A stretch of DNA of 64,000 bases from assembly GCA_016214895.1 (NCBI GenBank), contig JACRMR010000003.1, positions 248,001 through 312,000 on the forward strand, given 5' to 3'. Below, piece by piece: positions 1 to 58,000 of the stretch; the stretch's first letter is position 1, and each line of letters begins with the position of its first letter. This DNA is from a candidate division KSB1 bacterium (GTDB taxonomy: Bacteria; Electryoneota; RPQS01). Under the pieces are notes generated by a model. That model worked only from the letters and a program-made list of their open reading frames with translations. It searched no databases and was not told the DNA's origin. A program made the translations under genes and the position numbers.

Positions 1-56
1 TGATCTTGGAGGACCGGAAGATGGCGGGCTTTGCGCGCGCCAACGGCCTAAGCTGA
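1..56 (+). CDS. C-terminal tail of an unidentified gene (partial)
   Basis: Only the last 17 codons and the stop (TGA at 54-56) of one open frame are inside the window; the tail reads ILEDRKMAGFARANGLS. A strong intrinsic terminator starts about 40 nt downstream, which supports a genuine gene end. Nothing can be said about function. Another frame stays open to position 108, so the choice of frame rests on the terminator spacing and the protein-like composition. Confidence 0.45.
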   Translation, partial: ILEDRKMAGFARANGLS

Positions 57-54206: not shown

Positions 54207-54235
54207 TTGACATGCGGGTGTCAGAGCATTAAATT
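54207..54235 (+). promoter_or_regulatory. Consensus promoter of the cysteine operon
   Basis: TTGACA (54207-54212), a 17-nt spacer and TAAATT (54230-54235). The expected transcript start is the A at 54242 or 54245, only 0-3 nt before the leader peptide's ATG, so the leader ORF is leaderless or nearly so. Confidence 0.85.
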
Positions 54236-54244
54236 GGTAGCATC

Positions 54245-54337
54245 ATGATCCACCAGCCGTCCCATAACACCTGCTGCTGTTGTCCTTGTTGGAAATACCC
54301 TCCGGCGAAGTTCGGCCTCGTGTTGCCTCCGAATTGA
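54245..54337 (+). CDS. Polycysteine leader peptide (30 codons)
   Basis: A short ORF from ATG 54245 to TGA 54335-54337. The peptide has Cys at positions 10, 11, 12, 13 and 15 (codons TGC TGC TGT TGT, then CCT, then TGT at 54272-54289), followed by WKYPPAKFG. It lies directly behind a strong promoter, lacks a ribosome site and would be translated from the transcript's 5' end. An intrinsic terminator follows 27 nt after its stop. GGCGAAG (54304-54310), within the ORF, is the exact complement of CTTCGCC (54367-54373) in the terminator's 5' arm. Cys starvation should stall the ribosome on the Cys codons and leave this segment free. This is the expected design of a cysteine-responsive attenuator, upstream of cysteine-synthesis genes. 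Polycysteine leaders that are leaderless are known from mycobacteria. Confidence 0.8.
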   Translation: MIHQPSHNTCCCCPCWKYPPAKFGLVLPPN

Positions 54338-54363
54338 CGGACGCTGCAATACAAACAGCCTGA

Positions 54364-54395
54364 CCCCTTCGCCACCGCGAGGGGGTTTTTCTTTT
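54364..54395 (+). terminator. Attenuator terminator in the cysteine-operon leader
   Basis: CCCCTTCGC (54364-54372) pairs with GCGAGGGGG (54377-54385), 9 bp with one G-T, loop CACC, followed by TTTTTCTTTT (54386-54395). It lies between the leader peptide and the first structural gene on the same strand, so it must act conditionally. Besides the 54304-54310 match, CCTCGTG (54316-54322) can pair with CGCGAGG (54376-54382) in the 3' arm (one G-T). Confidence 0.88.
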
Positions 54396-54456
54396 GGCGA
54401 TAAGTGCTTTTGTCGGCGGAATGCCGAGCCACCACAACGGAAGGAATGATTGCGCC

Positions 54457-55113
54457 ATGAGTGACACGACTGCGACCGCATATTTACCCCGCCTGAATGA
54501 GCCGGCGCCGGACTTCACCGCGAAAACCACGCAAGGCGAGCTGAAGCTGGCCGATTTCAAAGGCAGGAAGTGGGTGGTGCTGTTCAGCCATCCGGCGGAC
54601 TTTACTCCCGTCTGCACGACGGAATTCATCGCCTTCGCGCGAAACCACGAAAAATTCGAGCGCCTGAACACACAGATCATCGGTCTGTCAATTGACAGCA
54701 TCTATTCGCACATTGCGTGGGTGCGGAACATCGAAGACAAGTTCGACGTGAAGGTCCCGTTTCCGGTGATCGCGGACCTGAAGATGGATGTGGCACGCGC
54801 CTACGGCATGGTGCATCCGACGGCGTCCGACACGTCGGCGGTGCGGGCGGTCTTTGTGATCGACGACAAAGGCATCATCCGGGCGATGATCTACTACCCA
54901 TTGACGAACGGTCGCTCGATTGACGAGGTCTTGCGGATTGTTGAGGCCTTGCAGACCACGGATAAGAATCAGGTCGCCACACCGGAGAACTGGCGTGCCG
55001 GTGATAAGTGCATCGTGCTGGCGCCGCAGACCGTACAGGTGGCGGCGCAGCGGTCGGCAGAAGGCTTCGACTACACCGACTGGTACTTTACGAAGAAAGC
55101 GGTGAATTCGTGA
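54457..55113 (+). CDS. Prx6-type peroxiredoxin
   Basis: 218 residues from the ATG at 54457, with AAGGA about 12 nt upstream; the longer frame to 54394 would run into the attenuator terminator. It belongs to the Prx6/1-Cys-like AhpC/TSA class: FSHPADFTPVCTTEF holds the peroxidatic Cys 53 with its Pro and Thr partners, the active-site Arg is in SAVRAVFVIDDKG, and the C-terminal dimer region has PENWRAGDKCIVLAP with Cys 185 as a possible resolving Cys. It reduces peroxides. It is the first gene of the operon, and its stop overlaps the cysM start (GTGA), so peroxide defence and cysteine supply are co-expressed. Confidence 0.94.
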   Translation: MSDTTATAYLPRLNEPAPDFTAKTTQGELKLADFKGRKWVVLFSHPADFTPVCTTEFIAFARNHEKFERLNTQIIGLSIDSIYSHIAWVRNIEDKFDVKVPFPVIADLKMDVARAYGMVHPTASDTSAVRAVFVIDDKGIIRAMIYYPLTNGRSIDEVLRIVEALQTTDKNQVATPENWRAGDKCIVLAPQTVQVAAQRSAEGFDYTDWYFTKKAVNS

Positions 55114-56081
55114 CGGCCTATCCGCTGCTGACGACGGAAGCCGCGCCCCGGGAATCGGTGACCGCTGATGACTTGTTTACGCCACCGCCGGTGGTCACGC
55201 AAATCGGGAATACGCCGCTGCTCGAACTCAAGCAGGTGCGTAGCGGGCTCCACCCCGCCGTGCGCGTCTTTGCCAAGGCCGAGTGGTCCAATCCGGGAGG
55301 CTCGGTGAAGGACCGCGCGGGCTGGTATATGATTCGGCAGGCGATCATTGATGGCCGGCTGAGCGGGGACCGGCGCATTCTCGATGCCACGAGCGGCAAC
55401 ACGGGAATTGCGCTGGCGATGATCGGCGCCGCGTTGGGGATTGGCGTCACGCTCTGCATTCCCGCGAATGCGAGTGCGGAACGGAAGCGCATACTTGCGG
55501 CTTACCATGCGGAGGTGATCCTGACGGATGCCTTGGGATCCACGGACTCGGCGCAGGCCACGGCGCGACAGCTTTCTCTGAAGTACCCTGACCGCTACTG
55601 TTACCTCAATCAATACGCGAATCCGGCCAATGTTCGCGCGCACATGTTGACGACCGGACCCGAAATCTGGCGACAAACCGACGGGAAGGTCACGCATTTC
55701 GTCGCGGGTCTGGGCACGACCGGAACCTTTACGGGTGTCGGACGCTATTTGAAGGCGCGGGCGCCGCAGGTCAGGGTCTTTTCGTTTCAGCCTGACGGTC
55801 CGCTGCACGGACTCGAAGGATTGAAACACCTTCCGACGGTTCACGTTCCGGAGATTTACGACGCCGCGCTATTGGACGGGAATCTTGAGGTCAGCACGGA
55901 AGACGCTTACCTGATGATGAAGCGACTGGTGCGCGAGGAAGGCCTGTTCGTCGGCGTGTCCGCGGCGGCGGCAACCGTCGCCGCGCTGCGCCTGGCGGCC
56001 ACGCTCGAATCGGGGCTGGTGGTGACAATTCACTGTGATACCGGCGCGCGCTACCTGTCGCTGCCGGTGTGGGATTCCTGA
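55110..56081 (+). CDS. cysM: CysM-like cysteine synthase (PLP enzyme)
   Basis: 323 residues from the GTG at 55110, overlapping the peroxiredoxin stop; the ORF start at 55008 lies inside that gene and is not used. A fold-type II PLP enzyme: cofactor Lys 67 in NPGGSVKDRAG, SGNTG (95-99), and GLGTTGTFTGVGRYLK for phosphate binding. The C-terminal part (VHVPEIYDAALLD ... REEGLFVGVSAAA) is closer in style to mycobacterial CysM, which takes O-phosphoserine and the thiocarboxylate of carrier CysO, than to CysK. The neighbouring JAMM protease and CysO-like carrier support that donor. Whether O-acetylserine or O-phosphoserine is used cannot be read from the sequence. Confidence 0.9.
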   Translation: MTAYPLLTTEAAPRESVTADDLFTPPPVVTQIGNTPLLELKQVRSGLHPAVRVFAKAEWSNPGGSVKDRAGWYMIRQAIIDGRLSGDRRILDATSGNTGIALAMIGAALGIGVTLCIPANASAERKRILAAYHAEVILTDALGSTDSAQATARQLSLKYPDRYCYLNQYANPANVRAHMLTTGPEIWRQTDGKVTHFVAGLGTTGTFTGVGRYLKARAPQVRVFSFQPDGPLHGLEGLKHLPTVHVPEIYDAALLDGNLEVSTEDAYLMMKRLVREEGLFVGVSAAAATVAALRLAATLESGLVVTIHCDTGARYLSLPVWDS

Positions 56082-56117: not shown

Positions 56118-56555
56118 TTGGCGATTCAATTGACGGCCGGACACATCTCGCTCATCGGTCGGGAAGCCGAGCACGGCTATCCCGATGAAGTCTGCGGGTT
56201 TCTCTATGGCCGGGATGGCGGCGATACGCGCGAGATTCAGCGCGTGGTTCCCGTGGTCAACGAGCAGCATTTCAACCGCGCGCGCCGGTTTCTCATCACG
56301 CCCGACCAGTTTCGTCACGCGGAGTCGCGGGCGCACGAATTCGGTCTGGACTTGCTCGGCTTCTACCACTCGCATCCCGACCACCCGGCGATTCCCTCGG
56401 AATTCGATCGCGAGCACGCGTTGCCATTCTACTCCTATGTCATTATCTCCGTACGTTCCGGGCGGAGTGCCGAGTTGCGCAGTTGGCTGCTGCTCGAAGA
56501 TCGCAGCGGCTATGCCGAGGAAACAATCCGGGAACTCACCACCACGACGATATGA
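56118..56555 (+). CDS. mec: JAMM/MPN+ metalloprotease of the cysteine pathway (Mec-like)
   Basis: 145 residues, TTG start with AGAGG about 10 nt upstream. The zinc JAMM motif is intact: Glu 24 in YPDEVCGFLYG and HSHPDHPAIPSEFD (84-97: His 84, His 86, Ser 94, Asp 97). In mycobacteria the equivalent Mec releases cysteine from the C-terminal glycine of CysO after CysM has added it. Here it may do the same and may also have to free the carrier from its fusion partner. It lies 36 nt after cysM and overlaps the next gene by 4 nt (ATGA). Confidence 0.9.
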   Translation: MAIQLTAGHISLIGREAEHGYPDEVCGFLYGRDGGDTREIQRVVPVVNEQHFNRARRFLITPDQFRHAESRAHEFGLDLLGFYHSHPDHPAIPSEFDREHALPFYSYVIISVRSGRSAELRSWLLLEDRSGYAEETIRELTTTTI

Positions 56556-58000
56556 GCATCTCCATTCAAATTCCCACAGTACTCCGCAGGTTCACGGAGA
56601 ATCTGGACCAGGTTGAGGTTGACGGCGCCAACGTGCGCGAGGCTCTGCAGTCGCTGGTCTGGCGTCACCCGCATCTACGGAAGCACCTGTATGACGACGC
56701 CGGTTCTGTACGCAGCTTTGTGAACGTCTATCTTGGTGATCAGGACGTGCGTCACTTGCCCGCGAAGCACGACACCCGGCTGAACGGCGGCGAGGTCCTG
56801 ACCATCGTGCCTTCCATTGCCGGGGGCAGCGGCCGCAATGGGCTGCCGCCATTGACACAGCATGAGATTCGGGCGTACAGCCGGCATTTGTTGTTGCCCG
56901 AGGTCGGCGCGGAAGGCCAGCGCAAGCTGAAAGCCGCCTCCGTACTCGTCATTGGCGCGGGCGGGCTCGGCTCACCGTTATTGGCCTACCTGAGCGCGGC
57001 CGGAGTTGGCCGCATCGGTATTGTCGATCTCGATGTGGTGGACGAAACGAATTTGCAGCGGCAGATTATTCATGGTGTGGACCGCCTCGGCGCGTCCAAG
57101 CTTGAATCGGCCCGGCAGTTCATTCGCAACCTCAATCCACGTGTTCAGGTCGATCTGCATGAGACATATCTCTCGAGCGAGAACGCGCGGTCGCTGGCCG
57201 CGGGTTACGACATTCTGGTGGATGGGACGGATAACTTCCCGACGCGTTATCTCGTCAACGATGTTGCCTACTTGCTGGGAAAGCCGAACGTCTATGGCAG
57301 CATCTTTCGATTTGAGGGGCAGGCCAGTGTTTTCTGTACGGAGGGCGGACCGTGTTATCGTTGTCTCTATCCGGAGCCACCGCCGCCCGGGTTGGTTCCT
57401 TCGTGTGCCGAAGGCGGGGTTTTGGGCGTCTTGCCGGGGATCGTCGGGTCGATTCAGGCGACGGAGGTCATCAAGCTGATTCTCGGAGTTGGGCAGTCGC
57501 TGGCGGGTCGCTTGCTGCGCTTTGACGCGTTGGGCATGAAGTTTCGCGAGTTCGTGTTGCAACGCGATCCAGCTTGTCCGCTGTGCGGTGACAGGCCCTC
57601 CATTCACGACTTGATCGACTACCACGAGTTCTGCGGACTTCCGGCATCGCAGGGCTCGGTCTCCGTGCCGGTCGAGAACCAGATCGACGTGAAGCAACTG
57701 CACGCGCTGCTGGAACACGGCAACGGCCATCGTCCGGTGCTTCTGGATGTGCGGCTGCCCGAGGAGCTTGAAATCTCCGCCCTGCCGGGCGCGCAACTGA
57801 TCCCGATTCAGGAACTGGAGTATCGGCTGCACGAGGTGGAACGGGAGCGGGACGTGGTGATCTTTTGTCGCAGCGGCCGCCGCAGCGCCCAGGCGTGGTA
57901 TCTGTTGCGCGATGCGGGGTTTCGCAATCCCATGTACAATCTGGAGGGCGGCATTCTGGCGTGGGCGGAGCAGATTGATCCCACGATGGCCTTATACTGA
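56552..58000 (+). CDS. Fusion of CysO-like sulfur carrier, E1-type activating enzyme and rhodanese
   Basis: 482 residues from the ATG at 56552, which overlaps the JAMM stop; the longer frame to 56483 is within the JAMM gene. Residues 1-92 are a ubiquitin-like carrier of the CysO/MoaD type (IQIPTVLRRFTENLDQVEVD ... GGEVLTIVPSIAGG) whose terminal Gly-Gly (91-92) is internal. Residues about 100-350 are a MoeB/ThiF-type E1: GAGGLGSPLLAYL, NLQRQ (167-171), catalytic Cys 285 in PSCAEGGVLG, and zinc Cys 268, 271, 342, 345. Residues about 375-482 are a rhodanese with Cys 439 in FCRSGRRS. In mycobacteria CysO, MoeZ and Mec are separate proteins. Making the carrier work would need cleavage after Gly 92 or an unusual intramolecular reaction. 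Confidence 0.93.
   Translation: MSISIQIPTVLRRFTENLDQVEVDGANVREALQSLVWRHPHLRKHLYDDAGSVRSFVNVYLGDQDVRHLPAKHDTRLNGGEVLTIVPSIAGGSGRNGLPPLTQHEIRAYSRHLLLPEVGAEGQRKLKAASVLVIGAGGLGSPLLAYLSAAGVGRIGIVDLDVVDETNLQRQIIHGVDRLGASKLESARQFIRNLNPRVQVDLHETYLSSENARSLAAGYDILVDGTDNFPTRYLVNDVAYLLGKPNVYGSIFRFEGQASVFCTEGGPCYRCLYPEPPPPGLVPSCAEGGVLGVLPGIVGSIQATEVIKLILGVGQSLAGRLLRFDALGMKFREFVLQRDPACPLCGDRPSIHDLIDYHEFCGLPASQGSVSVPVENQIDVKQLHALLEHGNGHRPVLLDVRLPEELEISALPGAQLIPIQELEYRLHEVERERDVVIFCRSGRRSAQAWYLLRDAGFRNPMYNLEGGILAWAEQIDPTMALY

Follow-up and report, generated by a model that had tools for sequence, protein, structure and literature searches.

A predicted cysteine-responsive transcription attenuator with a putative leaderless leader peptide ahead of a cysteine-synthesis operon

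Introduction

A 64,000-nucleotide stretch of DNA from a candidate division KSB1 bacterium, hereafter the window, contains a short open reading frame (ORF) with a run of cysteine codons ahead of genes for cysteine synthesis. Does this reading frame control the operon behind it, and if so, at which step of gene expression? Our comparison with related genomes, together with folding calculations, indicates that the element is in all likelihood a cysteine-responsive, ribosome-mediated transcription attenuator.

Results

Promoter, leader ORF and terminator in the window

All features of the element lie on the + strand. A sigma-70-type promoter, TTGACA-17-TAAATT (54207-54235), was read directly from the sequence, with the -35 box TTGACA at 54207-54212 and the -10 box TAAATT at 54230-54235, separated by a 17-nt spacer. 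It is the top promoter-like site of the region (score 10/12; 2 sites where 0.2 would be expected). The -10 box is followed by GGTAGCATC and then by an ATG at 54245. Judged from the position of the promoter, transcription is predicted to start at about 54242, 0-3 nt ahead of this ATG. Since an in-frame TAG lies at 54239, the ATG is the sole start available ahead of the cysteine codons. The leader ORF of 30 codons (54245-54337; MIHQPSHNTCCCCPCWKYPPAKFGLVLPPN) would therefore be leaderless or carry a 3-nt leader. Its codons 10-15, the putative sensor (54272-54289), read Cys-Cys-Cys-Cys-Pro-Cys (CCCCPC), with four Cys codons at 54272-54283 (codons 10-13) and a fifth at 54287-54289 (codon 15).

The leader is followed by an intrinsic terminator at 54362-54387, whose 5' arm (54362-54372) and 3' arm (54377-54387) form 11 pairs, 7 of them GC, around the loop CACC; a T-rich tail, corresponding to a U-rich tract at 54386-54395, completes it. 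The first gene of the operon begins about 60 bases further on. As in attenuators, a short leader ORF with repeated codons for the product of the pathway is thus combined with an intrinsic terminator that precedes the first structural gene. Promoter, ORF with its five Cys codons, and terminator with U-rich tract all agree with the original prediction. The gene upstream of the leader is PhoB-like, lies on the minus strand and belongs to a divergent PhoB/PhoR-like pair, so the terminator ends no upstream transcript. An Rfam scan of the window at the gathering score matched no riboswitch, T-box or other family.

A leaderless start of the kind known from mycobacteria is indicated here by the promoter position. 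In the genome of the organism (G000), for which genome-wide statements derive from pattern and model searches, the pattern TTGAC-18/19-TANNNT-5..9-ATG occurs 29 times, compared to 6 times for the reversed pattern, and is thus about five times commoner. Several of these sites lead long ORFs, among them, by eye, a PurM-like protein and two regulator-like proteins. The excess makes leaderless or near-leaderless transcripts plausible in this organism and suggests that they may be frequent.

The controlled operon

The genes behind the leader, all on the + strand, encode a peroxiredoxin of the 1-Cys Prx type (PRK13189; 54457-55113), a CysM-like cysteine synthase (PALP; 55113-56081), a Mec-like JAB protease (56118-56555) and a fusion of a CysO-like ThiS domain with a MoeZ-like E1 and a rhodanese (56555-58000). 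The operon is thus peroxiredoxin-cysM-mec-cysO/moeZ, in line with the cysteine-making function expected of it. In mycobacteria, CysO, CysM and Mec form a pathway of cysteine synthesis. The window operon contains CysM-like, Mec-like JAB and CysO-like parts as well, but differs in the fusion of the CysO-like domain to the MoeZ-like E1 and rhodanese and in the peroxiredoxin that leads the operon.

Within the fusion protein, the GG end of the carrier is internal, and the JAB protease gene lies just upstream; cleavage would be needed to free the CysO-like carrier. The CysM-like protein carries GVSAAAA in place of the GTSSGA(A/S) of both close relatives, and HCDTGARYLS in place of their FPDGAEKYLS, possibly reflecting a change at the cofactor phosphate site.

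Recurrence of the element in the bacterial family

Two genomes from a different genus of the same family, G006 and G010, encode CysM orthologs with 69% identity. In the same place as in the window, both carry leaders, MRTQKLATCLCCCHSPSMCEGGVVSYARD and MRTQKMTTCLCCCQTRSHGEGGCVRMSVTE, with the promoter TTGACT-17-TATCTT, an ATG exactly six bases past the -10 box and a terminator. The genes behind the leader of G010 open with the peroxiredoxin, like those of the window, while in G006 the leader is directly ahead of cysM. When the family's remaining cysteine-synthase loci were searched for the identical promoter-ATG spacing, four further elements emerged. Those of G009 (MQNLSRNLCCVCCTVTPEGEG), G001 (MRKTICNCCCACCPLPVWVKGHVRSSVC) and G007 ((M)MNTATDCTCLCCLILREVKGRLRASMS) are ahead of a CBS-type cysteine or cystathionine synthase, and that of G004 (MIRFTTTTCACCCPRLLGKGNGVVALV) is ahead of cysK, followed by a hexapeptide-repeat, cysE-like gene. 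The seven elements therefore stand ahead of three types of cysteine locus (the CysM/CysO operon in the window, G010 and G006; CBS-type in G001, G007 and G009; cysK with a cysE-like gene in G004), so that one cassette fronts different loci.

Altogether, 7 of 11 family genomes, from six genera, hold exactly one element each. The -35 box, 17-nt spacer and -10 box are kept in all seven, as are at least four Cys codons (4-7 per leader) and the terminator. The ATG coincides with the predicted +1, 6 nt past the -10 box, in six of the seven and lies 9 nt past it, at about +4, in the window. In the six other members, the leader ORFs have 21-30 codons and the Cys run ends at codon 12-13. Beyond the run, the sequence and length (21-30 aa) of the peptides vary among the seven genomes.

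A covariance model of the element matched strongly, once per genome, in the same 7 of 11 family genomes (E 9e-34 to 2e-42), and no other match among 39 genomes of the phylum came close; as the model was trained on these seven, the search informs on absence elsewhere rather than on the reality of the seven. The model found no such element in the remaining four family genomes, which are 56-91% complete. In other families of the phylum, the loci encoding cysteine synthases (most of L147-L160) gave no leader that combined a Cys run with this promoter spacing. Two apparent candidates were discarded: the end GSNPG of the Cys ORF at L072 resembles, by eye, a tRNA gene read as protein, and L298, flagged by the script, has no T run. 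L041 was left out of the leader count.

Complementarity and covariation of the antiterminator

In all seven elements, a 7-10-nt segment that begins at leader nt 51-60, 13-15 nt past the final Cys codon of the run, complements the 5' arm of the terminator. In the window, this is GGCGAAG (54304-54310), a perfect partner of CTTCGCC (54367-54373), with about five extra pairs possible between 54298-54303 and the 3' arm of the terminator. The segment reads TGCGAAGG in G006, GGCGAGGG in G010, GGGTGAAGG in G009, GGGTGAAGGG in G001, GGTGAAGGG in G007 and GCAAAGGG in G004; where the segment differs, the arm differs in step. The five best helices of each leader include the terminator, and the helix between the segment (leader nt 51-66) and the 5' arm ranks first or second in 7/7. 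The complementarity is significant in every genome, with p 0.0005-0.008 for dinucleotide shuffles of the linker and p 0.0005-0.026 for shuffled codon order. Fisher combination of the dinucleotide-shuffle values gives 5.5e-12, which is too optimistic and overstates independence, since the genomes are related.

Pairing was then counted in a hand-registered alignment, in which the segments were excised and linked through constant spacers, with structures derived from the same sequences. Counted this way, 90.5% of the cells of the antiterminator helix are paired, with two-sided compensatory changes in 4 of 9 pairs; the corresponding values for the terminator helix are 95.2% and 4 of 9. Sliding the antiterminator partner by 1-3 positions left zero two-sided changes. 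Because both helices show such changes, the 5' arm appears to be held by two partners at once.

The original prediction had named two heptamer pairs as antiterminator. Across the relatives, the first of them was conserved and covarying together with the Cys run and the terminator. The second, CCTCGTG (54316-54322) with CGCGAGG (54376-54382), fell away: it needs one G-U pair, is unconserved, crosses the first pair so that the two would form a pseudoknot, and is absent from the five best helices in the other six genomes.

Folding with a moving ribosome

The leaders were folded while a ribosome footprint was moved along them codon by codon. While a Cys codon of the run occupied the A site, the computed probability of the antiterminator before the 3' arm is made was 0.92-1.00 in all seven genomes; with the ribosome two to three codons past the run, it dropped below 0.1, again in 7/7. 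As had been anticipated for a ribosome on the Cys codons, the antiterminator segment is thus predicted to be free during a stall and masked two to three codons on, and the antiterminator to exclude the terminator.

The two structures match in stability in most genomes (antiterminator/terminator -17.6/-19.3 kcal/mol in the window, -24.6/-22.9 in G010 and -14.9/-14.9 in G007), and G009 and G001 have the more stable antiterminator. For the full-length window leader at equilibrium, the terminator wins at most stall positions, and the antiterminator reaches about 0.6 only with the A site at Cys 11. Since the completed terminator wins at equilibrium, read-through in the window would have to be kinetic, with the antiterminator forming first. 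For some Cys positions, the antiterminator wins at equilibrium too in G009, G001, G006, G010 and G004. When no ribosome is present, the antiterminator can form ahead of the 3' arm in six of the seven, and only G009, with its protecting hairpin, yields a clear prediction.

Discussion

Proposed mechanism

From the parts, their spacing, conservation and compensatory changes, we predict the following order of transcript start, translation, stalling and termination in response to cysteine. The transcript would begin at or just ahead of the leader AUG, and we propose that ribosomes accordingly load on a leaderless end. As long as Cys-tRNA is sufficient, the ribosome would pass the Cys codons and cover the antiterminator segment (leader nt 51-66), whereupon the terminator would form and RNA polymerase halt in the U tract. 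When Cys-tRNA runs short, the ribosome would stall on the Cys codons with its leading edge just short of the segment; the free segment could then pair with the emerging 5' arm, and polymerase would continue into the cysteine operon. Conservation, covariation and occlusion folding all support this reading, which the original prediction had already put forward. Against it stand the four family genomes in which no element was found and, in the window, the advantage of the terminator at equilibrium.

Alternative explanations

Could the Cys ORF instead act as in Actinobacteria, governing access to the start of the first gene or the entry of Rho, with the hairpin being incidental? The leaderless poly-Cys small ORFs of mycobacteria are described as acting on the translation of the next genes (PMC9031893, PMC13236596), and Rho has been proposed for actinobacterial Cys leaders (PMC1262725). 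A GC-rich stem with a U tract, however, stands between leader and gene in all seven genomes and its 5' arm changes together with the leader segment, which makes translational or Rho-type attenuation very improbable. Still less credible is a functional Cys-rich peptide, for example in metal binding, redox chemistry or as a modified peptide, with a terminator that merely lowers downstream transcription. Such peptides can bind metals, and a peroxiredoxin is found behind the leader in two genomes; yet it is the RNA pairing that is kept while peptide sequence and length diverge outside the Cys run, and the constant partner is cysteine synthesis.

The least probable explanation is a chance ORF that happens to precede a terminator which is constitutive and unregulated. 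Stretches of four TGY codons are no rarity in the genome, about as frequent as the reversed pattern (41 matches against 31), so the Cys run alone proves nothing. The case lies in the combination of parts and its recurrence: against chance stand seven occurrences with fixed spacing, ahead of three kinds of cysteine locus and with compensatory changes. Ribosome-mediated transcription attenuation thus remains by far the preferred reading.

Cysteine leaders beyond the family

Two genomes from another phylum also have a Cys-rich leader and a terminator ahead of cysM (L006:1175-1322 and L237:1331-1490). At L006, TGATAGTGGGT at the stop codon complements the terminator arm GCCCACTATCA, and this candidate antiterminator segment overlaps the stop codon of the leader. 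Poly-Cys leaders followed by T runs are likewise present ahead of cysM in all seven loci with at least 67% CysM identity to L057, from an uncultured member of the Anaerolineae (L264, identical to L057; L265, identical to L046, Chloroflexota; and L272-L276). Those of L273 and L275 look leaderless, and others carry purine-rich stretches ahead of the ATG. Among the other L057-CysM relatives that were read, at 65% identity and below, no leader was accepted.

Tentatively, poly-Cys leaders with intrinsic terminators might regulate cysteine synthesis widely outside Actinobacteria. They turn up in three or more lineages (the phylum of the family, the Anaerolineae clade and the phylum of G092 and G157) and could be either ancient or repeatedly invented. 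In the family, the leaderless start might then be part of the sensor because the ribosome could load once the transcript appears. We consider this broader reading doubtful.

The seven elements extend cysteine attenuation to uncultured lineages and place a peroxiredoxin under apparent cysteine control. As one regulatory unit ahead of different cysteine loci, the cassette offers a clear and portable test object.

Comparison with known systems

Attenuation by leader peptides has been suggested earlier for FCB bacteria. For Flavobacterium psychrophilum, 'strong clues' were reported upstream of amino-acid operons (PMC9723704), and in Bacteroides, small ORFs in long 5' UTRs led to a similar suggestion (PMC7366714); the passages of these two sources that treat the matter contain no cysteine case. 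Our literature search, with most subscription journals outside its scope, returned no Cys transcription attenuator with terminator and antiterminator, and none joining a leaderless start to a terminator.

Closest by description are the leaderless polycysteine small ORFs of mycobacteria, in which contiguous Cys codons ahead of cysteine genes are proposed to let the ribosome respond to Cys supply (Canestrari et al. 2020, doi 10.1111/mmi.14498, as presented in passages of PMC9031893, PMC13236596 and PMC9094748). The original prediction had invoked them as precedent. This holds for the kind of ORF, since both are short, leaderless (here by prediction), rich in contiguous Cys codons and followed by cysteine genes, but not for the device: passages of two of these sources (PMC9031893, PMC13236596) describe translational attenuators, and control of downstream translation with no intrinsic terminator does not fit the present elements, which have a terminator and a co-changing antiterminator in 7/7. 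In Actinobacteria, too, Cys-run leader peptides precede a cbs gene as well as cys operons (Seliverstov et al. 2005, PMC1262725). No conserved terminator hairpin was seen in those leaders, which left their mechanism open, whereas terminator and antiterminator are found in 7/7 here and the seven elements hold all parts of a transcription attenuator together with compensatory changes. With the mycobacterial systems described as translational and the actinobacterial leaders as lacking terminators, the window element would be a transcription-termination version and thus a different device.

The elements share with the classical ribosome-mediated attenuators, the trp, his and ilv leaders (among them ilvB1 of M. 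tuberculosis, as covered in part of PMC13236596), a leader peptide with regulatory codons and mutually exclusive terminator and antiterminator. They differ in that they would sense cysteine, in the predicted leaderless start and in an antiterminator segment that lies inside or ends the leader ORF, 13-15 nt past the sensor codons. While the outline of attenuation is already known from other bacteria, our search gave no earlier account of a cysteine attenuator that joins a leaderless start to an intrinsic terminator, as predicted here.
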